A stretch of DNA of 64,000 nucleotides from Bradyrhizobium zhanjiangense (GTDB lineage Bacteria; Pseudomonadota; Alphaproteobacteria; Rhizobiales; Xanthobacteraceae): contig NZ_CP022221.1 in NCBI RefSeq assembly GCF_004114935.1, forward strand, positions 3,493,001-3,557,000. The letters are read 5' to 3'. Positions within the stretch are counted from its first letter, which is position 1. The number at the start of each line of letters is the position of its first letter. Shown here piece by piece: positions 15,835 to 42,506 of the stretch. Under the pieces are notes generated by a model. The model was not told where the DNA came from. It worked only from the letters and a program-made list of their open reading frames with translations, and searched no databases. Both the position numbers and the translations under genes were made by a program.

Positions 15835-15927
15835 TGGGTTACATCGTGAATCAGAATGAGTGTCGATGGCCACCGTGATTGGAGTCGCTCTCAACGGTCG
15901 CTTCTGACATCGCATATTTTTTGGCGG

Positions 15928-22132: not shown

Positions 22133-24013
22133 ATGAATACCGCACAATTCGCATTGGCATCGGCCTTTTCGCCTGCTTCACGCGAGGACTGGCGCAAGCT
22201 GGTTGATGGCGTGCTAAAGGGAGCACCCTTCGAAAAGCTGATTGGCAAGACGTACGACGGCTTGAGAATCGAGCCGATTTACCGCCGAGCGAAAGACATT
22301 ACGCCGATCGAGGGGCGTGCACCCGCGGCGCCTTGGCAGATCATGCAGCGTATCGATCATCCAGACGCGGCAGCAGCAAACAGGCAAGCCCTCCAAGATC
22401 TCGAGAATGGAGCGACGGGCCTGGCGCTCGTCTTTGCCGGGGCCAACTGCAGCCGCGGGTTCGGCTTGGACCCAACGGCGGGCGCCGTCGCCAAAGCTCT
22501 AGAGGACGTTCACCTTGATGCCGGCATTGGGATTGAACTTCGGATCGGTACACATGGGCGTAAGTCCGCGATCCACGTCGCGAAATACGTGAAGTCGGTC
22601 GGTCTCGATCCTGCCCTCTGCGACATTAGATTTGGGCTGGATCCGCTGGGCGCGTGCGCCCTCCGCGGACGCAGTCGATACACCTGGAAGGAAATCGCGC
22701 GGACGGTTGCCAGCACGATCAAAGGGCTCGTAACGCTGGGGTTCAAAGGGCCGTTCGCTGTGAGCGATGGCCGTATCGTTCATGATGCCGGCGGCTCAGA
22801 AGCGCAGGAGCTTGCCTTCGTGCTTGCCTGCGCGGTGGCATATCTGCACGCTATGGAAGCGGCGCGCATTCCGCTGGATCAAGCACGAACTATGATTTAT
22901 GCGCGACTCGCTGCTGACGCAGACCAGTTTTTGACTATGGCCAAATTCCGCGCGTTACGACTACTCTGGGCGCGCATCGAATCGGCGTGTGGACTTGCGC
23001 CAAAGCCGCTGTTTATTGCGGCCGATAGCTCCTGGCGCATGTTGACCAGGCGCGATCCCTACGTGAACATGTTGCGCGCTACCTTGGCGACATTCTCTGC
23101 GGGAATCGCCGGTGCCAATGCGATCACCGTTCTCCCGCACACGTTGGCGCTAGGCCTTCCGGACGCGTTTGCGCGGCGCGTGGCGCGCAACACGCAGCTC
23201 CTGCTGCTGGAGGAAAGCAATCTAGCCAAGGTTAGCGATCCTGCCGCAGGTGCTGGCGGCATTGAGGCGCTAACAATGGAGCTATGCGAGGCGGCCTGGA
23301 GGAGCTTTCAGGAGACTGAAAATGCCGGAGGCATTTTTGCCACTCTCCAACAGGGAACGTTTCAGGCGAAGATCACAGCTACGCGCAGGGCGCGTGAAGC
23401 CAATCTCGCGAAGCGCCGCGACCCGCTGACCGGGGTGAGCGAGTTCGCAAACCTTGGCGAAGGCGCAGCGGCGGTACTGAACGTAACACCGATGGCTCTT
23501 CCGCCAAACGTTGACCAGAAATACGTATTCGATGCACTGCCACCGATCCGGCTTGCGGAACCATTCGAATCGCTCCGCGACAAGTCCGATGCGATATTGA
23601 AGCTACGCGGCATGCGGCCGCGAGTGTTTCTTGCTAGTCTGGGCACACCGACCGACTTTACGGCCCGCGCGACCTTCGCGAAGAGCTTCTTCGAAGCCGG
23701 AGGAATTGAGGCTATCGACGGCGCAGGCGTTGCCGACCCAGCCGAGCTTGCCCTCGCATTCACAGGCTCAGGCGCCGAACTCGCCTGCCTTTGCTCCAGC
23801 GACAAGATCTATGCGGAGCGCGCCGAAATCTCCGCCCAAGCGCTTCAGCAAGTCGGTGCTAGGCACATCTATTTGGCGGGACTTCTCTCTCAATCCGAGG
23901 CCGCGTTTCGGCGGGCTGGCATCGGCAGCTTCATTCACGTCAGTTGCGACGCCTTGGCAACGCTAAATGCCGCTTACGAGTGGATCCAAAACCCGAAGAT
24001 TTCCTTCGGATAA
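22133..24013 (+). CDS. mutA: Methylmalonyl-CoA mutase small (beta) subunit
   Basis: A 626-residue protein of the methylmalonyl-CoA mutase family, beta-subunit type. It has the barrel domain (ARNTQLLLLEESNLAKVSDPAA) and a C-terminal Rossmann-like domain that lacks the DxHxxG cobalamin motif (CSSDKIYAERA in its place). It therefore supports MutB and does not itself bind B12. GTG at 22124 is an alternative start three codons upstream. Its codon use is clearly less GC-rich than pccB/pccA before it and most of mutB after it, which suggests separate acquisition. It precedes mutB by 25 bases. Confidence 0.9.
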   Translation: MNTAQFALASAFSPASREDWRKLVDGVLKGAPFEKLIGKTYDGLRIEPIYRRAKDITPIEGRAPAAPWQIMQRIDHPDAAAANRQALQDLENGATGLALVFAGANCSRGFGLDPTAGAVAKALEDVHLDAGIGIELRIGTHGRKSAIHVAKYVKSVGLDPALCDIRFGLDPLGACALRGRSRYTWKEIARTVASTIKGLVTLGFKGPFAVSDGRIVHDAGGSEAQELAFVLACAVAYLHAMEAARIPLDQARTMIYARLAADADQFLTMAKFRALRLLWARIESACGLAPKPLFIAADSSWRMLTRRDPYVNMLRATLATFSAGIAGANAITVLPHTLALGLPDAFARRVARNTQLLLLEESNLAKVSDPAAGAGGIEALTMELCEAAWRSFQETENAGGIFATLQQGTFQAKITATRRAREANLAKRRDPLTGVSEFANLGEGAAAVLNVTPMALPPNVDQKYVFDALPPIRLAEPFESLRDKSDAILKLRGMRPRVFLASLGTPTDFTARATFAKSFFEAGGIEAIDGAGVADPAELALAFTGSGAELACLCSSDKIYAERAEISAQALQQVGARHIYLAGLLSQSEAAFRRAGIGSFIHVSCDALATLNAAYEWIQNPKISFG

Positions 24014-24038: not shown

Positions 24039-26201
<2,163 letters not shown>

Positions 26202-26804: not shown

Positions 26805-27164
26805 ATGAAGCTTAAGCACGTCTATCTTACCGCTCCGGAACCTGAAGCACTGGCCCGCTTTTACGAAGCACTTGGATTGACGATCCGCTTTGCTGACCGC
26901 GGCAAGTGGATTCAGTTCGTAGGAGACAAGGCCGCCTTTTGCTTAGCAAGCCCTGCGGAATCCGTGTCCGAGCAGTTTCGGAATGCTGTGGTTGTATTCG
27001 AGGTGGAGGATATGGACGCTGCGCTTGAGCAAGCGCGGGCGGAGGGCGCTGAGCTCGTCGGTGAAGTTCGGGAGATGGGGGCGCATGGCCGGGTGGCCCA
27101 TTTGAAAGATCCGCAACGCAACACAATTCAGTTCTTTCAGGCTGTGGTCAAGAAGGGCGTCTAA
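26805..27164 (+). CDS. VOC-superfamily (glyoxalase/bleomycin-resistance type) protein
   Basis: A 119-residue single-module protein of the vicinal oxygen chelate fold (HVYLTAPEPEALARFYEALG, VVVFEVEDMDAALEQAR, HLKDPQRNTIQFFQ). Metal-ligand positions are suggested by the first His and the last Glu/Gln region, but the usual C-terminal Glu is a Gln here (TIQFF), so metal binding is uncertain. VOC proteins act as lyases, isomerases, dioxygenases or binding proteins. It opens the cluster that continues with a flavin reductase and ABC importer. Substrate unknown. Confidence 0.85.
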   Translation: MKLKHVYLTAPEPEALARFYEALGLTIRFADRGKWIQFVGDKAAFCLASPAESVSEQFRNAVVVFEVEDMDAALEQARAEGAELVGEVREMGAHGRVAHLKDPQRNTIQFFQAVVKKGV

Positions 27165-27214
27165 CCCGCTTTATGAACTAGATTCGGTTCGATTTATCGG
27201 GGAAACCTATCACC

Positions 27215-27742
27215 ATGAACTTCCGAGTGTCGCCCATGCCTAGTCAAGAAATCCCTGCGTTCAGTAGCAAGGAATTCCGGAGCGCAATGCGCAACGTGCC
27301 GGGTGCAGTGTCTATCGTAACTACGGGGGTGCATCCTAGCAGGCACGGTTTGACGCTGACGGCCGGCTGCTCATTGTCGACCGAGCCATCGAGCGTGCTG
27401 GTCTGCGTGAACAAGTCGGCTGGCGGTCACGATACGATAAAGCAGAGTGGATCATTCTGCTGGAATATTCTCGCGGCGGATCACGCCGAGCTGGCAAGAA
27501 AGTTCTCCGGGCAGGACGGCAGCAAGGGTGACATACGCTTTACCGACGGTTTGTGGCGCGAACTGATTACGGGAGCGCCAAGTTTGATCGATGCGATTTG
27601 TAGCTTCGATTGCCGACTGACTGACTCTCACGATGCTGGCAGTCATACGATCTTCGTCGGTGAGGTGGTCGCACAAGCGATAAACGCCGATCGCGACCCC
27701 CTTGTCTATGTGAATGGCGAATTCACAGTACCGAAGCGTTAG
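27215..27742 (+). CDS. Flavin reductase family protein
   Basis: A 175-residue protein of the flavin reductase-like FMN-binding split barrel family (FRSAMRNVPGAVSIVTTG, LTLTAGCSLSTEPSSVLVCVN, SGSFCWNILAADHAELARKFSG, GEVVAQAINADRDPLVYVNG). These enzymes reduce free FMN or FAD with NAD(P)H and supply reduced flavin to a separate monooxygenase. The luciferase-like monooxygenase at 33306-34436 in the same cluster is the obvious partner. The first ATG and one nine residues inside are both possible starts. Confidence 0.9.
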   Translation: MNFRVSPMPSQEIPAFSSKEFRSAMRNVPGAVSIVTTGVHPSRHGLTLTAGCSLSTEPSSVLVCVNKSAGGHDTIKQSGSFCWNILAADHAELARKFSGQDGSKGDIRFTDGLWRELITGAPSLIDAICSFDCRLTDSHDAGSHTIFVGEVVAQAINADRDPLVYVNGEFTVPKR

Positions 27743-27854
27743 AACTCCGACTGGTTCGGGGAACGTGCTTGAGTCATGGAGCGGATACTAACGCCGCTTC
27801 TATGAACCGATGTTTGTAGCCAATAAAGGTCAATTCTGGAGCAAGGGTGCGGCG

Positions 27855-27995
27855 ATGAGCGTTGAGGAGACCAGGCGGAAAGCGATTAGCGAAGTCATCT
27901 CGATTTGGAGCGATGGACGCGAGGCGCCAGCCGCGCCTTCGGACATCCCAATGTCCTGGCTGCGGTGTCCACTCGTACCGCTCGTTGCTCACTAA
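27855..27995 (+). CDS. Short leader-like reading frame coupled to livH
   Basis: A 46-codon frame (MSVEETRRKAISEVISIWSD...) whose TAA overlaps the ATG of livH as TAATG, the arrangement used for translational coupling. An in-frame ATG at 27810 would make it 61 residues. The composition of the first half is protein-like and acidic/basic balanced; no family is recognised. Since livH itself has only a weak ribosome binding site, read-through of this frame could drive livH translation. It may equally be a chance frame. Confidence 0.35.
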   Translation: MSVEETRRKAISEVISIWSDGREAPAAPSDIPMSWLRCPLVPLVAH

Positions 27996-28864
27996 TGTTG
28001 TCACTTTGGCTCAACGTTCTTGCGAGCGGCATTCTGCTTGGTCTCGTTTATGGCTTGGTGGCGCTGGGGTTGACCATCATATTCGGCGTGATGCGGGTAG
28101 TAAACTTCGCTCACGGTGAGATGGTCGTCTTCGGCGTCTATATCGGATACTGGGCGGTCCGTCTTTGGGACGCCCCGATCATCGTAGCGGCGGCAATAGC
28201 TGCGGTCGTCATGTTCCTTTTCGGGTACCTCCTGGAAGCCCTGATAGTGAAGCGGTTCGTCAACCGGCCCCATCATTACCAATTCATTGTATTCATCGGT
28301 CTATCGCTGCTCTTTAGCGGCGTCCTTCTGGTCGGCTTCGGGCCTGACCCGCGTCCGAGCGCTTCTATACTATCGTTTCGCACTGTATCACTCGGCTTCG
28401 TGACGCTCGATCTGGCGAGATTGCAGGCGGCGATAACCGCGGGTGTGCTTATCGCTCTGCTGGGAGTATACCTCCGGTTTTCCTCGCTTGGCCGGGCGTT
28501 GCGAGCGGCCGCAGACAACCGGTTGGGAGGGCTTGTCGTTGGATTGAACATTCCACGGGTCTACGCGGTGACGTTCGGAATTGGTGCTGCCTGCGCCGGT
28601 GTAGCCGGGGCGCTGATATCTCCTCTGTTTGATGCCCAACCCTATCTCGCCGTTGACTTCACGCTTCTTGCTTTCGTGACGGTCATTGTCGGTGGTCTCG
28701 GCAGCTTCAGCGGAGCGCTGCTGGGAGGCCTTGTTATCGGCGTTGCCGAGGCAATTGCGGCTCTGATGTTCACACCGTCGATGAAGACGGCGCTTCCCTA
28801 CGCGCTCCTCATCATCATCCTGATTTTCCGTCCGAGAGGGTTCTTCGGTGCAAAAGAGATTTGA
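27995..28864 (+). CDS. livH: Branched-chain-amino-acid-type ABC transporter permease (LivH family)
   Basis: A 289-residue polytopic permease with about eight hydrophobic segments and the LivH signatures GLVYGLVALGLTIIFGVMRV, VNFAHGEMVVFGVY and FVTVIVGGLGSFSGALLGG. It forms the membrane channel of a HAAT-family importer with LivM. The ATG at 27995 is chosen because it starts the first membrane helix and fits the family length; an in-frame upstream start would add 30 unlikely residues. It overlaps livM by 17 bases. In catabolic clusters such importers often carry aromatic or other organic acids, not amino acids. Confidence 0.92.
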   Translation: MLSLWLNVLASGILLGLVYGLVALGLTIIFGVMRVVNFAHGEMVVFGVYIGYWAVRLWDAPIIVAAAIAAVVMFLFGYLLEALIVKRFVNRPHHYQFIVFIGLSLLFSGVLLVGFGPDPRPSASILSFRTVSLGFVTLDLARLQAAITAGVLIALLGVYLRFSSLGRALRAAADNRLGGLVVGLNIPRVYAVTFGIGAACAGVAGALISPLFDAQPYLAVDFTLLAFVTVIVGGLGSFSGALLGGLVIGVAEAIAALMFTPSMKTALPYALLIIILIFRPRGFFGAKEI

Positions 28865-29879
28865 CGGCGGGCCTGAAGTAAAGCGGTGGCTCGCGGGAGC
28901 GATGGTCTTCATCGTTCTTGCGTTCGTGGGCTCTTCTGCAGATCCGTACTTTATCTCACTGATGACGATCGTGTTGCTATTCACTTTCCTGGGGCAGTCC
29001 TGGAACTTGATGCTTGGCATCGGCGGCCAACTATCGATTGGCCATGCGCTTTTTGTCGGGCTAGGTGCCTATTCGGTTGGCGTCCTCTACGTCAAGTACG
29101 GAATCTCGCCGTGGATTGGCCTCTTCCTTGGAATGATCATTGCCGGGTCAGTCGGTGCGGCATTGGCCTGGTTGAGCTTCCGCTTCGAAGTGCGCGGAAT
29201 CTATTTCGCGCTGCTGACGATTGCGGCTGCGGAGTTTGCCAGGATCATGTTCAGTGGATGGGAATTCGTTGGCGCAATGCAGGGGCTGTTCTTTCCGGCG
29301 CCAACTGGCGCGATCGAATTCTCAATGCTCCGGGGAGGAGCCCGCTTCTATTACTTTGTCGCGCTCGCACTGGCCGCGCTGGGAATTATAGGAACCGAAC
29401 TGATTTCACGATCCTACCTCGGATACGTGTGGCGAGCGATGCGAGACGATGAACCGGCCGCACGAGCGCTGGGGGTCCGCACTTTCCGGCACAAGATTCT
29501 TGTGATCTCTGTATCCGCCGCAGCGGCCGCGGCCGGCGGTGGGGTTCTGGGACTCGTGCAAGGGTCGATATTCCCGGACTCAATCATGGGTATGGGGCTC
29601 TCTGTTGATGTGCTGATCGGACCTGTGGTCGGTGGGCTGGGGACGACGTTCGGTCCTCTGATTGGCTCGCTTGCCGCGATCCCTCTGAACCATTTGATGA
29701 GTGCCATCGGCGACAATCTTCGGATTCCGGGGCTGAACAATATCGCTTACGGAATTGTCCTCATTTTGGTCGTCTGGTTTCTGCCAGATGGCATCTGGCC
29801 GGCGATCGTGCGTCTCTGCAAAGCAATTCAGGCGCCATCCCGACTGTGGTTGCCGCATCTGAGGAAGGCCGAGGAATGA
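28848..29879 (+). CDS. livM: Branched-chain-amino-acid-type ABC transporter permease (LivM family)
   Basis: A 343-residue permease, starting with GTG, with nine or so hydrophobic segments. The LivM pattern is clear (NLMLGIGGQLSIGHALFVGL, YFALLTIAAAEFARIM, MRDDEPAARALGVRTFRHKI, GLGTTFGPLIGS). It pairs with LivH in the membrane. It overlaps both livH and livG, consistent with a coupled livHMGF operon. The substrate-binding protein is encoded separately at 37257-38489. Confidence 0.92.
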   Translation: MQKRFDGGPEVKRWLAGAMVFIVLAFVGSSADPYFISLMTIVLLFTFLGQSWNLMLGIGGQLSIGHALFVGLGAYSVGVLYVKYGISPWIGLFLGMIIAGSVGAALAWLSFRFEVRGIYFALLTIAAAEFARIMFSGWEFVGAMQGLFFPAPTGAIEFSMLRGGARFYYFVALALAALGIIGTELISRSYLGYVWRAMRDDEPAARALGVRTFRHKILVISVSAAAAAAGGGVLGLVQGSIFPDSIMGMGLSVDVLIGPVVGGLGTTFGPLIGSLAAIPLNHLMSAIGDNLRIPGLNNIAYGIVLILVVWFLPDGIWPAIVRLCKAIQAPSRLWLPHLRKAEE

Positions 29880-30601
29880 CGGCTCTATTGGAAGTAAAGA
29901 ACCTCTCTCGATCGTTTGGGGGATTGGTTGCGGTCAAGGACGTCAACTTCACGCTAGAGGCCGGACGTATTACTGCGCTCATTGGGCCGAATGGTGCGGG
30001 AAAGACGACCTGTTTCAACCTTGTCGCCGGCTCCCTGAGCCCGACCAGCGGGCAGGTGTTCTTCGAAGGACGCCAGATCGACAGTACCCCTCCGGAAATT
30101 GTCTGCAGGATGGGTATCGCAAGAACATTTCAAATCGTTCGACCAATGCGTGATATGTCCGTGCTCGAGAACGCAATGGTGGGCGCCTTCAGCTGGACCA
30201 AAAGCGTAAAGGAAGCCAAATCGAAAGCCTACGAATCCCTTGAAAGCGTCGGACTCGCCGGCAAGGCCAATGCGCGGACGGACCAGCTAACGCTTCCGGA
30301 TCGGAAAATGCTGGAGACGGCGAAGGCGTTATCCACTCGGCCAAAACTGCTGTTGCTGGATGAAGTAATGGCGGGCCTTCGACCGACAGAAGCGGCGGGT
30401 GTCGTCCGAGTGCTGCAGACACTTGCCGAAGGCGGCCTGACGATCCTCCTGGTCGAACACGTCATGCGGATCGTGATGGAAGTCGCGTCGAACGTCATCG
30501 TACTTCATCACGGTGCCAAGATCGCGGAGGGAAGTCCCGCAGAAGTGGTTGCCGATCAGAAGGTTCTTGATAGCTATCTAGGGGCAGGCTTCCATGCTTG
30601 A
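29876..30601 (+). CDS. livG: ABC transporter ATP-binding protein (LivG family)
   Basis: A 241-residue ATPase. Walker A is GPNGAGKTT, Walker B is LLLLDEV, and the switch His lies in LVEHVMRIV. The signature loop reads LTLPDRK where most ABC ATPases have LSGGQ or LSYGQ, and Walker B ends in DEV in place of DEP. These changes occur in a known LivG subgroup, so the protein is not necessarily inactive. It should energise import with LivF. The start overlaps the livM stop (ATGA); the end overlaps livF. Confidence 0.92.
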   Translation: MTALLEVKNLSRSFGGLVAVKDVNFTLEAGRITALIGPNGAGKTTCFNLVAGSLSPTSGQVFFEGRQIDSTPPEIVCRMGIARTFQIVRPMRDMSVLENAMVGAFSWTKSVKEAKSKAYESLESVGLAGKANARTDQLTLPDRKMLETAKALSTRPKLLLLDEVMAGLRPTEAAGVVRVLQTLAEGGLTILLVEHVMRIVMEVASNVIVLHHGAKIAEGSPAEVVADQKVLDSYLGAGFHA

Positions 30602-31313
30602 CGCGGCGCTCTTATCGATTGACGGGCTCTCTGTTGCCTACGACGGATCGAGCGCATTAAACGGCGTCTCGCTGCAGATCCGCAAAGGAGAGTTGATCTG
30701 CGTCGTTGGGGCGAATGGTGCAGGGAAAACGTCGCTCATCAGATCGATCTCGGGTATAGTACGATCTTCAAGTGGCACCGTAAAAATGAACGGCGTCAAT
30801 ATTGCTGGGCTGCCGCCATGGGAGATATGCGAACGCGGTATAGCGCAGGTCGCCGAGGGTCGACAGATTTTCGGCAGCCTCTCTGTCGAGGAAAATCTTC
30901 TGCTAGGCGGATCACTGAAGCGCGCGAAGGCCTATCAGCTCGAGACGCTTGAGTTCGTCTACCAACTGTTTGAGAGACTACGGGAGCGTAGACGGCAACT
31001 GGCAGGGACCCTATCCGGGGGCGAACAGCAGATGTTGGCGATCGGACGTGCGATCATGTCGAAGCCCGAAATGGTTATGTTCGACGAGCCGTCGATTGGG
31101 TTATCGCCTGCACTGACAGATGTGATGTTTGGCGTAGTGAAATCGCTCCACGAGCAAGGGATTACAGTGCTGCTGGTCGAACAGAACGTGGCGAAATCGC
31201 TTGCCTTGAGCAATCGCGGCTATGTCCTGGAGAATGGTTCAATCGTACTGCACGGATCGAGTCAAGAATTGCTCAACAATTCCGAGATTCAACGCGCATA
31301 TCTCGGAATGTAG
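30594..31313 (+). CDS. livF: ABC transporter ATP-binding protein (LivF family)
   Basis: A 239-residue ATPase with canonical motifs: Walker A GANGAGKTS, signature LSGGEQQ, Walker B MVMFDEPSIGLSP, and the switch His replaced by Gln in LLVEQNV, which is usual for LivF. It completes the HMGF importer. It is followed by two back-to-back hairpins and a pyrimidine tract that probably end the transcript. Confidence 0.93.
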   Translation: MLDAALLSIDGLSVAYDGSSALNGVSLQIRKGELICVVGANGAGKTSLIRSISGIVRSSSGTVKMNGVNIAGLPPWEICERGIAQVAEGRQIFGSLSVEENLLLGGSLKRAKAYQLETLEFVYQLFERLRERRRQLAGTLSGGEQQMLAIGRAIMSKPEMVMFDEPSIGLSPALTDVMFGVVKSLHEQGITVLLVEQNVAKSLALSNRGYVLENGSIVLHGSSQELLNNSEIQRAYLGM

Positions 31314-31322
31314 CGGAGCTGT

Positions 31323-31397
<75 letters not shown>

Positions 31398-31549
31398 TAC
31401 TTAACGGTCCTTCGGACCAGCGGAATTGCAAGCCGTCTAAGCAGATAATGCCGTGATGTGCCGCCGGGGCAACCTTTTGTGTTGATGCCTGCCGACGATG
31501 AAGCGGTGTACAGCAATCAATTCCGAGGTGCGTCACCTAGGCTCTACTC

Positions 31550-32311
31550 ATGATACAGGATGATGCCCTCTTAATCGATCGCCACCTTGACCTGGTCACA
31601 ATGACTATGAATAGGCCACCGGCAAACGCGTTGAACAACGAACTAGTTGAGCGCTTGCTGGATGCCTTTCGGGCGCTTGCCAGCCAGGCGATGCCGCCAG
31701 GTATTGTTCTGACTGGTCAGGGTACCCGGTTCTTCAGTGCAGGCGGCGACATAAAGGAAGTGACGGGCATCGAGATATCCCGGCCTCGTATGAGGTCGTT
31801 CCATGCGCTCCTTTGCGAGATGGAGCGATATCCGGCGCCGCTTGTGTGTGCCGTCCGAGGTTACGCTGTCGGCGGCGCGTTGGAATTTCTTCTGCACGCC
31901 GATTACGTGATCGCGAATGGCGAGTGTAAGATCGGTTTCCCGGAAATCAACCATGGTCTCTTGCCCGCGGCCAAAGGCATGCGGAAGGCAGTGCAGAAAC
32001 TGGGACTTCGTGATGCGCGAGCGCTGCTATATTGTGGCGAGCTGGTCGATGCAAGGAAAGCACTCGAGATCGGAGCAATCGACGAGATTGCAGCGACTTC
32101 GGACGTGACGTCGCGAGCGTTAGAAGAGTGTAAGTACCTTCGCGGAAAGGATCAAAGGCTATTTGCGGCCATCAAGCGCTCGCTGAACCTGACGGACCAG
32201 ATGGACGACGCCTCCCTTGAGGCGATGACAATTGAGGATCTTGGGGCCTACCTGACGGGAGACAGTTCGGCAGATGCGCGGGCCCGATTTCTGTCGAAAA
32301 ACGCAAAGTAG
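31550..32311 (+). CDS. Enoyl-CoA hydratase/isomerase family protein (crotonase 1)
   Basis: A 253-residue crotonase-fold protein. Both catalytic glutamates of enoyl-CoA hydratase have counterparts (GGALEF and GFPEINHG), and the oxyanion-hole pattern FSAGGDIKE is present, so hydratase or related chemistry on a CoA ester is plausible. PAAKGMRKAVQKLG replaces the usual PGAGGTQRL. It begins the second gene group of the cluster and is followed after six bases by the creatininase-family gene. Confidence 0.88.
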   Translation: MIQDDALLIDRHLDLVTMTMNRPPANALNNELVERLLDAFRALASQAMPPGIVLTGQGTRFFSAGGDIKEVTGIEISRPRMRSFHALLCEMERYPAPLVCAVRGYAVGGALEFLLHADYVIANGECKIGFPEINHGLLPAAKGMRKAVQKLGLRDARALLYCGELVDARKALEIGAIDEIAATSDVTSRALEECKYLRGKDQRLFAAIKRSLNLTDQMDDASLEAMTIEDLGAYLTGDSSADARARFLSKNAK

Positions 32312-32317
32312 GCATCG

Positions 32318-33085
32318 ATGACCGAATTTGCTTCTTCTGATGAAGTTCGACTGGAGTTGATGAATTTCGAGCAGGTGTCGGCGGCCCTGGCGCAGGGGAC
32401 GTCGACGATCCTGGTACCGTGCGGGGCCGTCGAGCAACATGGACCGCATCTTCCTCTTTGCATGGATGCCGACCACGCTGATGCGCTCGCATATAAGGTG
32501 GCGCGGCATCTTGGAAATGCTTTGATCGCACCGACAATCAAGGTCGGCTGCTCAGCTCACCATCTCGTATTTCCCGGCACCATCTCCCTTCGTCCTGAAA
32601 CGTTCGAAGCGATCTGCCTCGACTACTGCACAAGTCTCGCTCGGCACGGCTTCAAGCGGATCCTGCTGTTCTCGGGACACATCGGTAATTTTCCAATCCT
32701 GCGCGACATGCTTCCTCGATTGAAGCAGGCTATTCCCGAAGACGTCGAGATCGACGTATTCTCCGATTCGATCGCATGGATCGACAGGTGGCGAAGCGCC
32801 GTCAAAGAGGCCGGCGCAAACCCAGATGCGGTCGGCGGTCATGCCGACATAGCGGAGACGTCTCTCATGCTGTATCTGCGTCCCGACAGCGTGCGGCCGG
32901 ATCGGTTCGAGGCGGGGCACCTTGGCGCGCTGTCTGAAGAGCAACTTCGGTCCATGTGGAGAAACGGCGTCAAATCGGTCACTGCCAACGGCATCATTGG
33001 CGATCCGCATGGGTCGACTGCGGCAATTGGCGAGCGATGTCTTGAGGCGATAACCGAGCTCCTCGTCGCGTCCTTTGACAAATAG
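32318..33085 (+). CDS. Creatininase-family amidohydrolase
   Basis: A 255-residue protein of the creatininase family. The metal site is recognisable: GAVEQHGPHLPLCMDADHA supplies Glu, His and Asp, LLFSGHIGNFPIL matches the usual NGHGGN loop, and GGHADIAETSLML gives a further His and Glu. Family members hydrolyse cyclic amides such as creatinine or act as formamide hydrolases (MftE, FAPy hydrolases). In this cluster it could open a lactam or cleave an amide after oxygenation; that is inference. It is encoded just behind crotonase 1, so the two are probably co-translated. Confidence 0.88.
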   Translation: MTEFASSDEVRLELMNFEQVSAALAQGTSTILVPCGAVEQHGPHLPLCMDADHADALAYKVARHLGNALIAPTIKVGCSAHHLVFPGTISLRPETFEAICLDYCTSLARHGFKRILLFSGHIGNFPILRDMLPRLKQAIPEDVEIDVFSDSIAWIDRWRSAVKEAGANPDAVGGHADIAETSLMLYLRPDSVRPDRFEAGHLGALSEEQLRSMWRNGVKSVTANGIIGDPHGSTAAIGERCLEAITELLVASFDK

Positions 33086-33305
33086 ACGGGGTCGTATCGA
33101 GCGCATCCCGCTCTTCGAGCACTGTCCCCAAGTAAATCGCCACGTCGTTGCGACGAAGGACGGCGATGTCCTGAGACATGACGCGGTTCGGCTGCGTACA
33201 GCACAAAATTTGGAAAGTTGTGTAGCGAGACCCTGCATTCGGACGAAAATATTGCTGTGGTTATGAAATGTTAGGCCATCTCGAAACTCCCTGAGGATTA
33301 AGAAG

Positions 33306-34436
33306 ATGGCACTTACGTTCGGGTTTTGGTCGGAGCAGGAAACCCAGGTCGGGCAGAGTTATGCGCGCCGACTCCATGAGCTGGTGGACGAGGTGCGCCT
33401 CGCAGAAAAAATGGGGTTCGATTGCGCCTCGCTCTCCGAACAACACGTCGCATTGGGCGGCATTTCGAGCTCGGCGCCAGAGGTGGTCTATGGCTATCTC
33501 GCTGCCGTCACCTCGCGCATCAAGCTGAGGCCGGCGGTCACTTTGATGCCGCAGAAGATCAATCACGCCTTGCGGACCGCGGAGCGCTTGGCGGTGACGG
33601 ACATTCTCTCGAACGGTCGCATGGAGTTCTACGCCGGTCGAGCCAATACCACCATCGCGATGCGCGCGTTCAACGTCGATCCGGGTGAGACGCTCGCTCA
33701 AATGGAGGAGGGGATCGCGCTTCTGAAGAAATCGATGCGCGAAGACATCTTCACCTTCGAGGGCAAGTACTACCAGGTTCCGCCGCGAATGCTTGTCCCG
33801 AAGCCCCTGCAGAAGCCCCATCCGGTCATCGGCATCGCTGCCACGAGCGAACGCAGTCACAGCTGGGCTGGCGCCGAAGGCCTCGCTGTAATGAGCAATT
33901 CGATCTACCAGGGATGGGAGGTCCAGGAAAAGCTGCTCAACTCCTATCGTCGATCCTGGAAGCGTGACGAGCTTGGGCCGCTCGAGCGCCCACGCATCGG
34001 CATTCCGCTCTTTTTTGGGATTGGTCCTACGGATCAGAAGGCGAAGGAAGACTACGCCGAGCCGTTGATGAACTATGCGAAGATCTCGACCGACGCTTAT
34101 CCGCGCTTGGCAAAGATTGCCGATGATTACGCGTACATGAGCGAGAGCGTACCCGCCATGGAGCGCGCCGCCAAGGACTGGGATTATCTGCTCAATCACT
34201 CGGCAACTACGGTTTGCGGGAGCCCCGATACCGTCATTCGACAGATCGAAAAGTTCCAGGCATTGGGCATTGATGAGGTCCTTCTGCATCTGGACTCCGT
34301 AAATCACGAGAAGATCATGGAAGCGATCGAAATGGTCGGGCGCTACGTCATCCCGCACTTCAATGACAGAAACAATGTCGTGCGGCCGACGGAGGAGATC
34401 CTCGGTCAGATTCGCGCCATGCGGCCGCAAAAGTAA
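33306..34436 (+). CDS. Luciferase-like (LLM) flavin-dependent monooxygenase
   Basis: A 376-residue TIM-barrel enzyme of the bacterial luciferase-like family (AEKMGFDCASLSEQHVALGG, ERLAVTDILSNGRMEFYAGR, VCGSPDTVIRQIEKFQALGI near the end). These enzymes use reduced flavin from a separate reductase to oxygenate a substrate; the flavin reductase at 27215-27742 fits. TGAGGATTAAGAAG precedes the ATG. A gap of 220 bases from the creatininase gene may hold a promoter. Substrate unknown. Confidence 0.9.
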   Translation: MALTFGFWSEQETQVGQSYARRLHELVDEVRLAEKMGFDCASLSEQHVALGGISSSAPEVVYGYLAAVTSRIKLRPAVTLMPQKINHALRTAERLAVTDILSNGRMEFYAGRANTTIAMRAFNVDPGETLAQMEEGIALLKKSMREDIFTFEGKYYQVPPRMLVPKPLQKPHPVIGIAATSERSHSWAGAEGLAVMSNSIYQGWEVQEKLLNSYRRSWKRDELGPLERPRIGIPLFFGIGPTDQKAKEDYAEPLMNYAKISTDAYPRLAKIADDYAYMSESVPAMERAAKDWDYLLNHSATTVCGSPDTVIRQIEKFQALGIDEVLLHLDSVNHEKIMEAIEMVGRYVIPHFNDRNNVVRPTEEILGQIRAMRPQK

Positions 34437-34465
34437 AGTGTCCAGGAAAACACGGGAGCAGACCA

Positions 34466-35245
34466 ATGTCGAAGCAGGGCTACAAATATCTGATTGTCGA
34501 GCGGCGTCCGAGCGGTGTTGCCGTCGTAACCATGAACCGCCCGGAAATCCTGAATGCGATCAACTGGGATATGCACCACGAGCTGGAGCGCGTCTTCGTC
34601 GAGCTGGACGACGACAAGGCGACACGCGCAATCGTGCTGACGGGCGCCGGGCGCGGCTTCTGTTCCGGTGGCGATCAGAAGACGCTCGACAAGAGCCCGA
34701 TTCCTTCGCCGACCCGAGGTGGGCGTCATCTCATTCGGAATATGCTGGAAGTCGAAGTCCCTATCGTTGCTGCAGTCAACGGCGTTGCCGTTGGTCTCGG
34801 CGCGACGCTCGCTCTCTTCTGCGATGTCATCTTCGCAAATCCAACAGCACGGTTCGCCGATACGCATGTCACGGCGGGTGTCGTCGCAGGTGACGGAGGG
34901 GCTGTGATCTGGCCTCTCCTGATGGGGCCTGCCCGTGCGAAACACTATCTCATGACCGGCGAATTCATTTCCGCGGAAAAGGCGGCTTCCATCGGAATGA
35001 TCAACGACGTCATTTCCGACAGAGACGTCAAGGAGGCCGCGATCGAATACGCTGAGATGCTCGCGAGCGGTCCGAGGGAAGCGATCATTTGGACCAAATA
35101 CAGCGTCAACAAGATCATCAAGCAATATTCGCACCTATTGCTGGATACGTCGACTGCTCTGGAGACTATCACTTTCGCATCGCCTGATCGGAGGGATGCG
35201 GTCGCCGCGTTCGCCGAAAAGCGCAAGCGTTTCGCGGAGCGGTGA
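34466..35245 (+). CDS. Enoyl-CoA hydratase/isomerase family protein (crotonase 2, atypical active site)
   Basis: A 259-residue crotonase-fold protein with the oxyanion-hole motif FCSGGDQKT. The positions of the two hydratase glutamates are not Glu here: the first falls in GLGATLAL and the second in ADTHVTAG. An acidic residue is offered by VAGDGGAVIWPLL. It is thus unlikely to be a simple hydratase and may be an isomerase, hydrolase or ring-cleaving member. It lies 29 bases behind the monooxygenase and one base before the ligase gene. Confidence 0.88.
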   Translation: MSKQGYKYLIVERRPSGVAVVTMNRPEILNAINWDMHHELERVFVELDDDKATRAIVLTGAGRGFCSGGDQKTLDKSPIPSPTRGGRHLIRNMLEVEVPIVAAVNGVAVGLGATLALFCDVIFANPTARFADTHVTAGVVAGDGGAVIWPLLMGPARAKHYLMTGEFISAEKAASIGMINDVISDRDVKEAAIEYAEMLASGPREAIIWTKYSVNKIIKQYSHLLLDTSTALETITFASPDRRDAVAAFAEKRKRFAER

Positions 35246-35246
35246 A

Positions 35247-37118
35247 ATGGACGTCGAACACTTCACGTCGGGGGCTCAGTTCGCGGATGTAACCATTCCG
35301 CAGCTTCTGAGTTCTCGACGAGCAGCGCGGCCGGACGAGATAGCATTCAAGCAGAAGCGCCGGGGCGAATGGACTGCGACAACCTGGAGGCAGTATTCAG
35401 ATCTGGTCGCTAATTTGGCCGCGGCTCTGCAGAGAGCCGGATTCAAACACGGTGACCGTGCGGCCATCATGGGAGACGTGTCCCAAGAGTGGCTGCTTGC
35501 GGACATGGCGACGATCTGCGCCGGCGGAGTGATGGTCGGCGTCTATTTTACGTCATCGCCAGAAGAAGTTGGCTACTACCTCAGCGATTCCGGAGCATCC
35601 TTCGTCTTTGTCGGGAGCGAACTTCAACTCAATATTGTCCTGGCGTCAGGCCTGGCCGACAAGTTGAGTAAAATCATAGTGCTCGACCCGGAGTGGAAGG
35701 GAGCGGGCGGCTCCGCAAATGTTGTCCCGCTCCAGGAGTTCTTGAGAGGAATCGCGGTCGACGCTGATTTGTTCCTTAGGGAGCAGATTGCGAAATCAAA
35801 GGCAAGCGATCTCGCGAGCATTGGGTACACATCCGGTACGACGGGGTTTCCGAAAGGTGCGATGCTAACCCACCTTTCGCTACTCGCTGGCGCGCACTCA
35901 GTAACAACCTTCAATTCGAGTTTGCCTTCCGATGCGCATCGCGTCGTGGTGCATCTTCCGATGTCCCACACGGTTGCGCGCGCGCAGGCAACGACGTTGC
36001 CGTTGCTAATCCGGCTTGTGCCGTACTTTGGGGAATCGAGCGCTGATTTCGCTCAAACGATCAAGGAAGTGAAGCCAACCTACTTCATGGCTCCGCCGAG
36101 GTTCTATCAGAGGTTTGCCACCCAGATCCTCAGTAAGGTTCATTCGGGGTCTGAGAAGCAGAAGCAAGACTACCAATTCGCAATGACGATCGCTCGCAAG
36201 GCGCTCGACGACCGTCAGGCCGGCGGTGTGCCCAACCCGTTCATATCCGCCCTGTTCGCCGTCTGCCGGGAACGGATTTTCCGTCCCTTGCTTGCCGAGG
36301 TCGGGTTTGAACATCTCACCGTCACCTATACGTCGTCGGCCGCGATGCCTTCCGAACTCATGTCTCTGTGGCAGCTGTGGGGACTGCAGCTAAAGGAATG
36401 CTACGGGCAGACCGAGCTGGTTGGAGCGAACCTGGTCCAGATGGCTGAATGGCCGGAAGCGGGAACCGTAGGCGTCCCCGTACATGATGCGGCGTGGGAA
36501 ACTGCCGTTCTTGAAGACGGAGAAATGATCGTCAAAGGTCCTGGGCTCTTTGTCGGATACTGGAATAAGCCAGAGGAAACGAGGTCGGCCCTCCGCGATG
36601 GCTGGCTTTATACCGGCGATATCGTGGAGATTGGGCCGACAGGCCTGTTCAAGCTGGTCGATCGAAAGAAGGAGATCATCAACACATCCAACGGCAAATC
36701 GATCAGCCCCACGCAGATCGAGAATGAAATCCGGCACAGTCCCTTCATCTCTGAAGCGGCGGTGATCGGAGAAGGAAAGAAGTATCTGACCGCGTTGATC
36801 GAAGTAGATGCAACCGCGACAATGGAGTGGGCCAAATCGCGTGATCTTCGCATTGCGCACTATTCGGATCTGGCGGAGTCAGAGATCGTCGTCCGGATGG
36901 TTGAAGGCGAGATTGCCAAAGCGAACGGTCGGCTAGCGAGGGCCGAGCAGATCAAGGCCTTTCGAATACTTCCGGAGGAGCTCTCTCCGGAGAATGGCGT
37001 GATGACGCCAACGCGGAAAAAACGCCGCAAGCAAATAATGGAGCGGTACCGGTCACTGATCGATTCGCTCTATGACGATAGTGAGGAAAATCTGATCAAG
37101 ACCGAGGTAGGAATATAA
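35247..37118 (+). CDS. Long-chain-type AMP-dependent acyl-CoA synthetase
   Basis: A 623-residue ligase of the long-chain acyl-CoA synthetase type. Motifs include IGYTSGTTGFPKGAMLTHLS, ECYGQTELVG, GWLYTGDIVEIGPTGLFKLV and DRKKEIINTSNGKSISP, followed by an extended C-terminus. It should form the CoA thioester on which the two crotonases act. The ATG at 35247 is taken because it lies one base after the preceding stop; a longer frame would overlap crotonase 2. Family membership does not fix the substrate; such enzymes in ABC-linked catabolic clusters also take aromatic or alicyclic acids. Confidence 0.9.
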   Translation: MDVEHFTSGAQFADVTIPQLLSSRRAARPDEIAFKQKRRGEWTATTWRQYSDLVANLAAALQRAGFKHGDRAAIMGDVSQEWLLADMATICAGGVMVGVYFTSSPEEVGYYLSDSGASFVFVGSELQLNIVLASGLADKLSKIIVLDPEWKGAGGSANVVPLQEFLRGIAVDADLFLREQIAKSKASDLASIGYTSGTTGFPKGAMLTHLSLLAGAHSVTTFNSSLPSDAHRVVVHLPMSHTVARAQATTLPLLIRLVPYFGESSADFAQTIKEVKPTYFMAPPRFYQRFATQILSKVHSGSEKQKQDYQFAMTIARKALDDRQAGGVPNPFISALFAVCRERIFRPLLAEVGFEHLTVTYTSSAAMPSELMSLWQLWGLQLKECYGQTELVGANLVQMAEWPEAGTVGVPVHDAAWETAVLEDGEMIVKGPGLFVGYWNKPEETRSALRDGWLYTGDIVEIGPTGLFKLVDRKKEIINTSNGKSISPTQIENEIRHSPFISEAAVIGEGKKYLTALIEVDATATMEWAKSRDLRIAHYSDLAESEIVVRMVEGEIAKANGRLARAEQIKAFRILPEELSPENGVMTPTRKKRRKQIMERYRSLIDSLYDDSEENLIKTEVGI

Positions 37119-37256
37119 TCTGATGCGTTTCCGCTTACTGCGATCATCAAGCGTGCTCGTGTTGCAGCTGTGTTCGCGCTGCAGCGCGCTGTCATTCTTA
37201 AAGCTTCCCACCAAATCGCCGCAATTTCCATTGTAGTCAACTGAAAGAGACTTCAC

Positions 37257-38489
37257 ATGAAGAATCGCATCGGAAAAAGGTTTACTCGCCGGGCCGTACT
37301 CGGCAGCGGTGCTGGCATCGCCGCCGGGCTTGTATCGTGGCCGGTCAGGGCGGTAGGCCAAGTCAAGGTTAAGATCGGCGCGATCATGCCCAGCAGCGGC
37401 GTGTTGGCGTTCCCCGGACAGGCTTGCGTGCGGGGCATTGATCTCGGCGCGAAGTTCGCCAGACAGAAGTACGGTGATGACATTGAGGTCAGTCACGCCG
37501 ATACGCAGAGCCGGCCGGAAAATGGCCGCATCGCTGCGGAGAACCTGATCCGCCAGGGTTGTACGGTCCTCATAGGCGCCTGGGACTCAGGCGCGACCAT
37601 CTCGGCGCTTCAGGCCTGCGAAGCAGCGAAGGTCCCGATGGTCGTGCATATCGCCAGCGCGACCCAAGTGACCTCGCAGGGGTTCACTCAGGTCTTCCGC
37701 TACTATCCGACGTCGCTGATGATCATTCGTCAGTCGCTTGTCGATTTGAAAGCTCTGTTGCCGACCCTCAACGGTGCGCCAGCCAGCGCGGTCGTCCTCC
37801 ACCTCAACAACGTGATGGGGCAGTCCAGCGCAACGAGCATAGCACAGGCCTGGAAAGAGGTCGATCTCCCGATCAAGCTCACCGAGTTCATTCCATACGA
37901 TGAGAAGGCCAAGGATCTCTCGGTCGAAGTTGCAAAGGCAAAAGCGACCGGCGCTGACATGCTTTTCCCGATCACCCGGGTCAACGACGCCATCATGATC
38001 ACACGTGAGTGTGTAAAGCAGGGATGGAGCCCGAAAATGATCTACTCGGCGAATTCGAACGGCGTTATCGACAAGGCATATTACGACGCGCTCGGCAAAT
38101 ACGCTGACGGCGCGATGGCGTCGGCGCTCTACTACAATCCGAAGGCGCCCGACGCGCACAAAATTCTCGAGATGTTCGCGGCCGACTACCCCAATGAATG
38201 GCTCGACGCAAATGCGGCATGCGCTTTCGAGGCCGTGCAGATCGTCAGGGATGCGGTAAAGCGTGCGGGCTCGTCGGAATCGGGGGCAATTCACGACGCG
38301 CTCAAGCTGACGGAAATGCAGCCAGTCTTGATGTCGTCTGGGACGATCAAATTTGACTCAAGCGGCCAAAACGTGAATTCCGCCGTGGCTCTGCTTCAGG
38401 CGCAAAAAGGCAAGCCGCGCGTCGTTTCACCGAGGGCAATTGCCGAAGCAGACCTGGAATATCCGCTGGTGCCCTTCAGCTCTCGATAA
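37257..38489 (+). CDS. ABC transporter substrate-binding protein (LivJ-like)
   Basis: A 410-residue periplasmic binding protein of the branched-chain amino-acid type. The N-terminus FTRRAVLGSGAGIAAGLVSW with twin arginine and a cleavage region near VRAVG indicates Tat-dependent export. The mature part begins VKVKIGAIMPSSGVLAFPGQ and has LIGAWDSGATISALQACEAA. It should capture the ligand for the LivHMGF importer encoded 6 kb upstream. It ends the cluster and is followed by a strong terminator. Confidence 0.92.
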   Translation: MKNRIGKRFTRRAVLGSGAGIAAGLVSWPVRAVGQVKVKIGAIMPSSGVLAFPGQACVRGIDLGAKFARQKYGDDIEVSHADTQSRPENGRIAAENLIRQGCTVLIGAWDSGATISALQACEAAKVPMVVHIASATQVTSQGFTQVFRYYPTSLMIIRQSLVDLKALLPTLNGAPASAVVLHLNNVMGQSSATSIAQAWKEVDLPIKLTEFIPYDEKAKDLSVEVAKAKATGADMLFPITRVNDAIMITRECVKQGWSPKMIYSANSNGVIDKAYYDALGKYADGAMASALYYNPKAPDAHKILEMFAADYPNEWLDANAACAFEAVQIVRDAVKRAGSSESGAIHDALKLTEMQPVLMSSGTIKFDSSGQNVNSAVALLQAQKGKPRVVSPRAIAEADLEYPLVPFSSR

Positions 38490-38542: not shown

Positions 38543-39415
38543 CTATGTGAAGGGCTGGTGGTTGCTGAAGCTCGACCGTTCGGCGAGGAAGCGGCGGGGG
38601 CTCTTTCCCATTGTCTTCTTGAACATAGTGATGAACGCGCTCGGGGTCTCATAGCCCAGATCGAGCGAAACGGCCTGCACCGACGATCCAGCCGTCAAGC
38701 GTTGCAATGCGACCAAGATATGAAGCCGCTGCCGCCAGCGTCCGAATGTCATTCCGGTTTCCTTCAAGACCAGGCGGGCGAAGGTCCGCACACTCATTGC
38801 ATACCGGGCGGCGAGTTCATCGATGGTGCTTCGGTCGCCGGGATCATTGAGCAGTGATGCCGCGAGATGTTGAAGTCGGCTGTCCGTGGAAATTGGCAAG
38901 TACATCTGTTCCGTGGACATCTGCACCAATTCGTCGAGCAGCACTCGACCGAGTCGGCTCGTCGGTCCTTCAACGGGATAAAGTGGCGGAAATACGGATA
39001 GCCGGTGTATCAACTCGCGAACGAGCGACGATATCGTGAATGTGCAGCAAGTGTTTGGAAGCATACTTGCCAGCGGATCGATGAAGACGAGGTAGACCTT
39101 TCCATTGTCTGATACGCAATTGCTATGCATGACCCCAGGAGGTATCCACACGGCTCCTTGCGGAGGAACGATCCATAACCCACCAGGGGCACGACACATG
39201 ACTGATCCATGTGAGGCGACGACCAATTGTCCCTTCTTATGCGAGTGCAGCGGGAGCTCGTCACCATGTTCACCAGTCTCAATGCACATCGAGACGATTG
39301 GGCGATCGAACTGATCCGGATCTATCGGGTCGTAATTGAGCCTAAGATCCGGCAAATTCATTCTGGCCAGGCTATGATCCATTTCAGATGCGGGTGACGT
39401 GCTCATTGAGTTCAC
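38543..39415 (-). CDS. AraC-family transcriptional regulator (catabolic-cluster-linked)
   Basis: A 290-residue regulator with a cupin-like sensor (SHKKGQLVVASHGSVMC, LWIVPPQGAVWIPPGVMHSN) and AraC-type DNA-binding domain (VRTFARLVLKETGMTFGRWR, VSLDLGYETPSAFITMFKKT). It is the close paralogue of the AraC protein at 11952-12782. It converges on the substrate-binding protein gene and its own upstream side faces the pyruvate dehydrogenase operon. Likely targets are the catabolic cluster, the aceE operon, or both. Confidence 0.9.
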   Translation of the reverse strand: MNSMSTSPASEMDHSLARMNLPDLRLNYDPIDPDQFDRPIVSMCIETGEHGDELPLHSHKKGQLVVASHGSVMCRAPGGLWIVPPQGAVWIPPGVMHSNCVSDNGKVYLVFIDPLASMLPNTCCTFTISSLVRELIHRLSVFPPLYPVEGPTSRLGRVLLDELVQMSTEQMYLPISTDSRLQHLAASLLNDPGDRSTIDELAARYAMSVRTFARLVLKETGMTFGRWRQRLHILVALQRLTAGSSVQAVSLDLGYETPSAFITMFKKTMGKSPRRFLAERSSFSNHQPFT

Positions 39416-39799
39416 TCGTTAATGGATACGGTTCCATCCGTCAGGTGCCGCGAGTGGAGTTCGCTTCGAGGGCCTGCGGGCGACAATAGCCCTTTGGAAA
39501 ATGATCGTCACGAAAAAGTAACGTGGTCGAAACGGGTCTAACCCGTCGGCTATGCCTTTTCCAAGCGCGACATGAGTCGGCTGGGCGGGCAGCCGTGCGG
39601 CGCGATCCAGCCAGCCGCGACAAAGTGTGCTTTCCGGGTACCTCATTGCCCTCTCGCGCGCGACACGGCAGAGAATGCCAAAATCCGCAACAGCTGGCTC
39701 GTCCGATCGCGTGTTCAGCCCGAAATGCCGGAGTTTTCGGCGAGATATGCCACGACATCCAATGCTACCAAGGAGGGAGTTCGAAGGAGCCTGACGACA
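39416..39799. other. Divergent intergenic region between AraC gene and aceE
   Basis: About 384 bases separate the AraC start from the chosen aceE start. Both promoters must be here. The aceE frame is open through most of this stretch, so the exact aceE start is uncertain. AAGGAG at 39784-39789 is the best ribosome binding site. No other gene is evident. Confidence 0.45.
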
Positions 39800-42487: not shown

Positions 42488-42506
42488 CGCAGGTCAAAGC
42501 GAAATC

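Follow-up and report, generated by a model that had tools for sequence, protein, structure and literature searches.

Which substrate is consumed by a locus that places a complete importer, a luciferase-like flavin-dependent monooxygenase (LLM) with its flavin reductase, two crotonases, a creatininase-family hydrolase and a coenzyme A (CoA) ligase side by side? The question is raised by a 64,000-nucleotide stretch of the Bradyrhizobium zhanjiangense genome (assembly GCF_004114935.1, contig NZ_CP022221.1), hereafter the window, which comprises bases 3493001-3557000 of a single 9.34 Mb contig. An earlier reading of this DNA, the original prediction, had singled out the genes at 26805-38489 as an uncharacterized catabolic cluster. 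We propose that they form the core of a larger island (~8.6-45.5 kb) for the breakdown of a pyridine-2-carboxylic acid. The substrate is most likely fusaric acid (5-butylpicolinic acid), and the end products would be propionyl-CoA and succinyl-CoA. On the evidence of sequence comparison, we give this reading a probability of roughly 60%; the more general prediction, ring opening of an N-heterocyclic acid, appears considerably safer.

A conserved five-gene core

Gene identities were assigned from the list of open reading frames (ORFs) and from Pfam and NCBIfam profile scans of the window proteins. In this way, all genes named in the original prediction were found in place:

26805..27164, + strand, VOC protein (PF00903)
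27215..27742, + strand, flavin reductase of the two-component monooxygenase (PF01613)
27905..31313, + strand, importer of the hydrophobic amino acid transporter (HAAT) family, two permeases and two ATPases of the LivHMGF type (ORFs, first-permease scan, counterparts on plasmid p195_1)
31348..31397, (CT)n tract between livF and crotonase 1
31550..32311, + strand, crotonase 1 (ECH1), classical two-glutamate site (PF00378)
32318..33085, + strand, creatininase-family metal hydrolase, proposed amidase/deformylase (PF02633, 230 bits)
33306..34436, + strand, LLM flavin-dependent monooxygenase, proposed pyridine ring-opening enzyme (PF00296)
34466..35245, + strand, crotonase 2 (ECH2), without the two glutamates, EchA15-like (PF00378)
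35196..37118, + strand, acyl-CoA ligase 1, FadD-like, AMP-binding (PF00501, PF23562)
37257..38489, + strand, substrate-binding protein of the HAAT importer, twin-arginine translocation (Tat) type (PF13458; RRAVLG start)

The HAAT importer is complete and has a Tat-exported binding protein, as had been predicted. The first permease and the binding protein were assigned by family scans, the second permease and the two ATPases by reading of their ORFs and by annotated counterparts on p195_1, and the twin-arginine start of the binding protein, RRAVLG, was read directly from the sequence.

We used the creatininase alone as a query on genome contigs, which returned 161 relatives, and kept the best-scoring 80 as loci. 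All five core genes (ECH1, creatininase, LLM, ECH2 and CoA ligase) were present in 52 of these 80 loci, in the same order and on one strand in every case. Because the loci had been found via the creatininase alone, the presence of all five genes in 52 of them indicates that the run is not due to chance. The core is carried by Bradyrhizobium, Rhodopseudomonas, Afipia, Mesorhizobium, Tardiphaga, Azospirillum, Tistrella, Sphingomonas, Paraburkholderia, Burkholderia, Pararhodobacter and two metagenome-assembled genomes; in L054 and L058, an AraC gene and a flavin reductase gene are inserted within the run. A diverged version was found in 12 further loci, all of them actinobacterial (e.g., Mycolicibacterium), with an LLM of 40-43% identity. 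Both crotonases and the ligase are also present in 11 of these, and one crotonase only in the other (L072, an 8.5-kb contig). The creatininase was found alone in the remaining 16 loci, several of which are short contigs (e.g., L036, 6.2 kb). Co-occurrence in other genomes, the test that the original prediction had itself proposed, is thus borne out.

Accompanying genes were counted over the 52 core loci at set thresholds and with flanks of ~10 kb at most, and the counts depend on both. The flavin reductase was found in 50 loci and the AraC-type regulator 1 in 48, followed by Lrp and the binding protein (35 each), LivH and the VOC protein (34 each), ribB (26), aceE and aceF (16 each), FUSC (9), HlyD and the alpha subunit of propionyl-CoA carboxylase (PCC; 5 each), the two subunits of methylmalonyl-CoA mutase (MCM; 4 and 5), the second ligase (4) and lpdA (3). 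The LLM was found in 30 of the 195 Bradyrhizobium genomes searched, and is therefore an accessory trait. The cluster proteins of the window are 95-100% identical to those of Bradyrhizobium genosp. SA-3 strain Rp7b (L003). The (CT)n tract of the window has ~25 units, some of them imperfect; L003 has a 30-base run, L004 has one of 10, and 15 further loci that were examined showed none. The tract may differ in length between strains.

Kinship of the LLM monooxygenase

In the plasmid collection, the nearest LLMs below those of the core itself are 43-45% identical and lie in actinobacterial clusters together with a crotonase, a CoA ligase, an amidase, an aldehyde dehydrogenase and a Rid-type protein, and a Streptomyces LLM of 41% identity has a creatininase nearby. 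LLMs at 31-35% identity include those of Arthrobacter sp. 68b plasmid p2MP and of R. opacus 1CP, the latter adjoining an amidase and a gene annotated as tpdB of tetramethylpyrazine oxygenase. In a phylogenetic tree, the core LLMs, the actinobacterial LLMs and the LLMs of the N-heterocycle clusters (tpd, p2MP) fall in one branch comprising 31 of 40 rows (SH-aLRT 97), which excludes all eight own-genome LLM paralogues in the tree. This was a quick tree with several long branches; 15 of the 23 paralogue loci selected had diverged too far to be placed in it, and a further five entries, either fragments or the gene of the window itself, were dropped.

The LLM is assigned to the TpdA/PyrA-like group by its place in this branch and by the presence alongside it of a flavin reductase (50/52 core loci) and an amide hydrolase, the creatininase being present in 52/52 since the loci were found with it. 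An amidase or amidohydrolase lies beside six of the eight related plasmid LLM clusters that have no creatininase (L085, L086, L090, L091, L092 and L094); the LLM of L095 lies outside the branch and is not counted among the eight. Ring opening with subsequent amide hydrolysis is proposed chiefly because an amidase or amidohydrolase adjoins most of the related LLMs, a place that the creatininase would fill here.

Two of the eight related clusters deserve separate mention. In L093 (Aminobacter sp. MSH1 plasmid pAM01), the LLM lies among genes for peptide deformylase, N-formylglutamate deformylase, aldehyde dehydrogenase and flavin reductase, and this is possibly a further N-heterocycle cluster. 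In L088 (plasmid pYKAM101 of an uncultured bacterium), the LLM, a flavin reductase, an aldehyde dehydrogenase, Lrp and a ribB/A-type gene lie between two IS21-like copies, an arrangement suggestive of a mobile N-heterocycle unit. No substrate was indicated by the solved structures of proteins related to the LLM and the creatininase.

Active sites of the hydrolase and the crotonases

Membership of the hydrolase in the creatininase family is clear (230 bits for PF02633, cut-off 31). Its residues E39, H41, D50, H121, H175 and E180, among which we assume the metal ligands to lie, are each shared by 97% or more of the 65 rows in the alignment (52 core loci and 13 actinobacterial loci). The protein scored below the cut-offs of creatininase proper (TIGR04448, 111.6 of 235 bits) and of the mycofactocin peptidase MftE (TIGR03964, 155.1 of 172 bits).

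The two crotonases have different active sites, as the original prediction had stated. Crotonase 1 carries two glutamates, E112 and E132, at least 97% conserved in an alignment that 51 of the 52 core and 12 of the 13 actinobacterial loci entered; we take these to be the catalytic pair, and the enzyme resembles an ordinary hydratase. In crotonase 2, the aligned places are taken by T114 and H134, with H134 and D143 conserved, and its nearest solved relatives are mycobacterial EchA15-type proteins with the same H and D. Crotonase 2 would thus do something else, perhaps isomerization or hydrolysis.

Among the remaining proteins, the VOC protein was rejected as a methylmalonyl-CoA epimerase (23.8 of 115 bits). 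The relatives of the binding protein in the PDB are listed as binding branched-chain amino acids or with their ligand unspecified and were no guide to the ligand, and those of the CoA ligase were too general to indicate a substrate.

A wider island and its plasmid-borne forms

The conserved set reaches well beyond 26805-38489 on both sides. The original prediction had covered the core and had missed about half of the island, namely ribB, Lrp, the second AraC regulator, FUSC, the second ligase, the 2-oxoacid dehydrogenase and the propionyl-CoA genes. The flanking genes of the window are as follows:

8620..9647, - strand, HlyD-type membrane fusion protein of an efflux pump, two ORFs (8620-9294, 9384-9647; Pfam HlyD_3 on 8620-9294)
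9781..11889, - strand, FUSC family efflux protein (PF04632, "Fusaric acid resistance protein family", 544 bits)
11952..12782, + strand, AraC-type regulator 2, divergent to FUSC (49% identity to AraC 1 over 261 aa)
13044..14156, - strand, ribB, 3,4-dihydroxy-2-butanone 4-phosphate synthase with a GTP cyclohydrolase II domain, flavin supply (PF00926, PF00925)
14179..15915, - strand, second acyl-CoA ligase, ACS2 (PF00501)
15928..16629, - strand, Lrp/AsnC regulator (PF01037)
16918..18303 (upper limit estimated from the match), - strand, short-chain fatty acyl-CoA regulator, ScfR type (PF09856)
18466..19998, + strand, acyl-/propionyl-CoA carboxylase beta (PF01039, 646 bits)
20006..22020, + strand, propionyl-CoA carboxylase alpha, split over two frames (ORFs 20006-21073, 20689-22020)
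22124..24013, + strand, MCM small subunit (PF01642)
24039..26201, + strand, MCM large subunit (PF01642, B12-binding)
38543..39415, - strand, AraC-type regulator 1 (PF12833)
39572..42487, + strand, MdeB-type 2-oxoacid dehydrogenase E1 (TIGR03186)
42447..43796, + strand, dihydrolipoyl acyltransferase E2 (TIGR01348 just under cut-off, 515 of 552 bits)
43804..45534, + strand, dihydrolipoyl dehydrogenase E3 (TIGR01350 above cut-off)

The ScfR-type regulator is the C-terminal part of a longer ORF, the remainder of which is antisense to PCC beta. For the split PCC alpha (20006-22020) and HlyD (8620-9647) genes, decay and sequencing error are indistinguishable in the assembly.

Several of these genes recur around the core in other hosts. 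In Burkholderia/Paraburkholderia plasmid records, aceF-lpdA (preceded by mdeB where covered), Lrp, ribB, ACS2 and AraC precede the core, and the flavin reductase follows it; the ACS2 counterpart adjoining the core in Burkholderia is about 51% identical. On an Azospirillum plasmid, the genes ahead of the core encode an AraC-type regulator, FUSC, HlyD and a CoA ligase. Relatives of HlyD adjoin the core in Azospirillum, and AraC 2 is kept beside FUSC in other loci. A compact complete form is carried by the conjugative plasmid p195_1 of Bradyrhizobium sp. 195, whose source is stated as root nodule. Its order is AraC, ribB, Lrp, VOC, flavin reductase, two permeases, two ATPases, ECH1, creatininase, LLM, ECH2, ligase, binding protein, AraC, mdeB, E2, lpdA, PCC beta, PCC alpha and MCM; the annotation of the p195_1 stretch includes neither FUSC nor the second ligase. 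In p195_1, the propionyl-CoA genes come directly behind the 2-oxoacid dehydrogenase, and in the window they precede the core, so that the same link is seen in two different arrangements.

The E1 protein belongs to the MdeB type (TIGR03186, 1528.7 bits, curated cut-off 1408.3), and no close second copy was found in the window's genome, the one other match being weak (29%). A second MCM, 96% identical to the large subunit of the island, is encoded elsewhere in this genome, and the island MCM is therefore an extra copy. Methionine degradation was considered for the E1 and set aside, no methionine gamma-lyase being annotated in the fetched flanks, whose gene tables are incomplete. A B. cepacia plasmid encodes a PatB-family C-S lyase ~4 kb past the flavin reductase, behind transposition genes.

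Evidence pointing to fusaric acid

Burkholderia sp. IMCC1007 was enriched on fusaric acid and grows with it (PMC10293998). Locus L051 (L051/L129) is a contig of this strain. It qualifies as a core locus, with the core genes in the same order as in the window, and locus and growth are linked by co-occurrence. At E 1e-120 or better, the LLM was found in four of 65 Burkholderia genomes, IMCC1007 being one of the four. The run mdeB-aceF-lpdA-Lrp-ribB-ACS2-AraC-core-flavin reductase is complete in the other three, and the IMCC1007 contig ends at lpdA. AraC 2 is present in both Burkholderia stretches long enough to cover it.

A second line of evidence is the linkage of the FUSC pump to the LLM in Bradyrhizobium. 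We defined a close FUSC by at least 60% identity, with a search cut-off of 1e-100 in LLM-bearing and 1e-180 in LLM-negative genomes. A close FUSC was found in eight of the 30 LLM-bearing genomes, all eight copies passing both cut-offs and lying on the same contig as the LLM, within 22 kb of it. Among 80 genomes without the LLM, part of a total of 165, a single one had a close FUSC (a 408-residue match, 76%), which gives a Fisher p of 1e-4 with kinship ignored. The more distant FUSC copies (36-38%; n=17 in the 30 LLM-bearing genomes) all lie either on a different contig from the LLM or more than 90 kb away from it. One of the eight close copies (G046) contains stops.

Two further features fit this substrate. 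The 49% identity between AraC 1 and AraC 2 suits a joint control of catabolism and efflux. Likewise, the butyl side chain of fusaric acid should leave an odd-chain acid and hence yield propionyl-CoA, a product not expected from unsubstituted picolinic or nicotinic acid. As far as the partly available sources go, the literature matches listed included no title on fusaric acid degradation by Bradyrhizobium or Azospirillum, and the accessible portions of PMC10728271, PMC11943191, PMC13106412 and PMC7356986 added nothing on the island genes.

Mobility and neighboring genes

The window holds two further groups of genes outside the island:

1358-5583 and 6844-7503, left end of the window, TrbL, VirB8, CagX and TrbI-type conjugation genes and an autoinducer synthase
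47067-49285, behind the island, panD, panB and panC (pantothenate, a CoA precursor)

The conjugation and autoinducer synthase genes beside the island suggest an integrative conjugative element, and the catabolic island is mobile at least in one relative, on plasmid p195_1. The position of panD, panB and panC is perhaps tied to CoA demand and perhaps due to chance.

Proposed pathway and its alternatives

From the gene identities, conserved linkage and conserved residues, the kinship of the LLM and the presence of the locus in a fusaric-acid isolate, all of which were observed directly, we infer a substrate, an order of steps, every intermediate and each enzymatic step. The acid would be taken up by the HAAT importer, with the FUSC/HlyD pump guarding against excess, and would be converted to its CoA thioester by CoA ligase 1. 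The LLM would then open the pyridine ring oxidatively to an N-acyl (N-formyl) product, drawing reduced flavin from the flavin reductase and flavin from ribB, and the creatininase would cleave the N-acyl amide by hydrolysis. Both crotonases would act on the ring-opened unsaturated acyl-CoA. The alkyl end would give a 2-oxoacid or an odd-chain acid, to be converted to acyl-CoA via the MdeB-type complex and ligase 2, ending in propionyl-CoA, which PCC and MCM would carry to succinyl-CoA. The AraC and Lrp regulators may sense the acid or an intermediate. Several elements of the scheme in the original prediction agree with this wider evidence: a nitrogen-containing cyclic acid as substrate, its activation with CoA, an oxygenation that depends on flavin, hydrolysis of an amide bond by the creatininase and a short acyl-CoA as product.

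Tentatively, the whole may be a self-contained mobile island in which the LLM cleaves a CoA-activated pyridine-2-carboxylate (fusaric acid) and the creatininase acts as a deformylase. The products would enter the MdeB-type complex and propionyl-CoA metabolism, and the element would also carry an efflux pump. Such a pathway would be a hybrid of phenylacetyl-CoA-style activation and pyridine-type ring opening in nodule and root bacteria.

A number of points weigh against fusaric acid or against parts of this pathway. FUSC pumps export other aromatic acids as well, and the Pfam name "fusaric acid resistance" is a label and no test. No close FUSC was found in 22 of the 30 LLM-bearing Bradyrhizobium genomes. 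The link to fusaric acid through a strain comes from a single isolate, and the authors who described it credit nicABCDFXT and fusC with the degradation, the present locus being unmentioned in the part of the article that was available (PMC10293998). What would tie the enzymes of the island to fusaric acid is gene content and kinship. The p2MP and tpd enzymes share only 31% identity with the LLM, a CoA ligase is absent from the fetched neighborhoods of both, and L088 has no annotated amide hydrolase. The HAAT importer was not found in 18 of the 52 core loci (one of which, L030, is a short contig), PCC and MCM were near the core in only 4-5 of the 52, and the PCC alpha and HlyD copies of the window each read in two pieces.

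The same chemistry might serve another N-heteroaromatic or alkyl-heteroaromatic acid of plants or microbes, an alternative that we consider doubtful. The kin of the LLM span both pyridine and pyrazine clusters, and the hosts are varied (e.g., Tistrella, Pararhodobacter, Sphingomonas and, for the diverged form, Mycolicibacterium), as such a substrate would allow. However, of the 65 Burkholderia genomes just four carry the LLM, and one of these four belongs to an isolate obtained on fusaric acid; the FUSC pump is linked, and the propionyl-CoA genes fit a butyl side chain, all of which argue for fusaric acid in particular.

A further alternative, the original prediction in its lactam form, would be a lactam or alicyclic acid degraded with no aromatic ring opening, the LLM acting as a Baeyer-Villiger-type or desulfurizing enzyme and the creatininase opening a lactam or lactone. 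Enzymes of both kinds occur among the LLMs, and the creatininase family includes lactam and ketone hydrolases, of which TIGR04448 and NF041098 were matched under cut-off. We regard this as improbable, since the LLM groups with N-heterocycle LLMs, apart from the paralogues of its own genomes, and its scores for the sulfonate, dimethylsulfone and nitrilotriacetate LLM families were far under cut-off. That the core and its flanks (2-oxoacid dehydrogenase, PCC/MCM, FUSC) are separate functions co-travelling on mobile DNA is very improbable. In its favor, the flanks often went unseen (PCC alpha 5/52, MCM 4-5/52, FUSC 9/52, aceE 16/52, with flanks of ~10 kb at most) and trb-type and autoinducer synthase genes lie at the left end of the window. 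Against it, linkage of the 2-oxoacid dehydrogenase recurs in both Alpha- and Betaproteobacteria with differing gene orders, and that of PCC/MCM takes two or more forms (window and p195_1).

Significance of the island

Fusaric acid is a toxin of Fusarium wilt and an antibacterial compound. If our reading of the island as a fusaric acid pathway is true, a plasmid-transferable island lets Bradyrhizobium, Azospirillum, Paraburkholderia and others disarm this compound and feed on it. This would bear on biocontrol and on the survival of inoculants beside Fusarium, and would tie nitrogen-fixing root bacteria to the detoxification of a fungal toxin. The analysis provides candidate genes for each step in rhizobia that are amenable to growth and deletion tests, and suggests a function for the creatininase subfamily and for the EchA15-like crotonase.

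Comparison with known systems

The original prediction had held that no described pathway has this exact gene set. Literature searches, open-licence in scope, found neither the combination of core genes (one unrelated match) nor a hybrid of CoA activation and pyridine-type ring opening. That no described pathway comes close is doubtful all the same, because the LLM groups with the tpd and p2MP LLMs and the same locus is present in the published fusaric-acid-growing strain IMCC1007.

The tpdABC genes form the tetramethylpyrazine cluster of Rhodococcus (PMC6099782). The likeness to the present core lies in an N-heterocycle LLM accompanied by an amidase and a flavin reductase (LLM, TpdB, amidase and flavin reductase), whereas the fetched stretch has no CoA ligase or crotonase, the LLM is 31% identical and the amidase is of a non-creatininase family. 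TpdA is presumed here to open the ring of tetramethylpyrazine. Plasmid p2MP of Arthrobacter sp. 68b, which we take to serve the use of pyridine and 2-methylpyridine with its LLM as PyrA, resembles the island in that an LLM, a flavin reductase, an amidohydrolase, RidA, a riboflavin kinase and a succinate-semialdehyde dehydrogenase are found together; it differs in the 31% identity of the LLM and in a fetched stretch without CoA ligase. Closer in content are Pseudonocardia pFRP1-1 and Arthrobacter sulfonylureivorans p1, in which a 43-45% identical LLM is joined by a crotonase and a CoA ligase (LLM-ECH-ACS-amidase-ALDH-RidA, where ALDH is aldehyde dehydrogenase), but an amidase replaces the creatininase and there is one crotonase. 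A 2-oxoacid dehydrogenase lies ~11 kb away in the A. sulfonylureivorans p1 stretch only, not in that of Pseudonocardia pFRP1-1.

MdeB is the 2-oxobutyrate dehydrogenase E1 of methionine degradation, which works with an Lrp-type regulator. The island shares with that system an E1 of the MdeB family and an Lrp regulator nearby, and differs in the methionine gamma-lyase, for which no gene was annotated in the fetched flanks. The pathways for indole-3-acetate, mimosine, camphor and biotin were dropped, as their gene sets presumably do not contain the present combination.

The nearest counterpart is the IMCC1007 locus, which has the same core together with AraC, ACS2, ribB, Lrp, the flavin reductase and lpdA, although its core proteins are 54-76% identical to those of the window. 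The Bradyrhizobium version has the HAAT importer, the VOC protein and PCC/MCM, whereas the annotated Burkholderia/Paraburkholderia loci have a major facilitator superfamily transporter and a porin nearby. For B. ambifaria T16, a 2023 study by Vinacour et al., outside the scope of our searches, reportedly implicated a flavin-dependent monooxygenase and the methylcitrate cycle in fusaric acid degradation. If the T16 genes are the present locus, the pathway is a known one, and the island of B. zhanjiangense is its rhizobial version, with its own importer and a propionyl-CoA branch.

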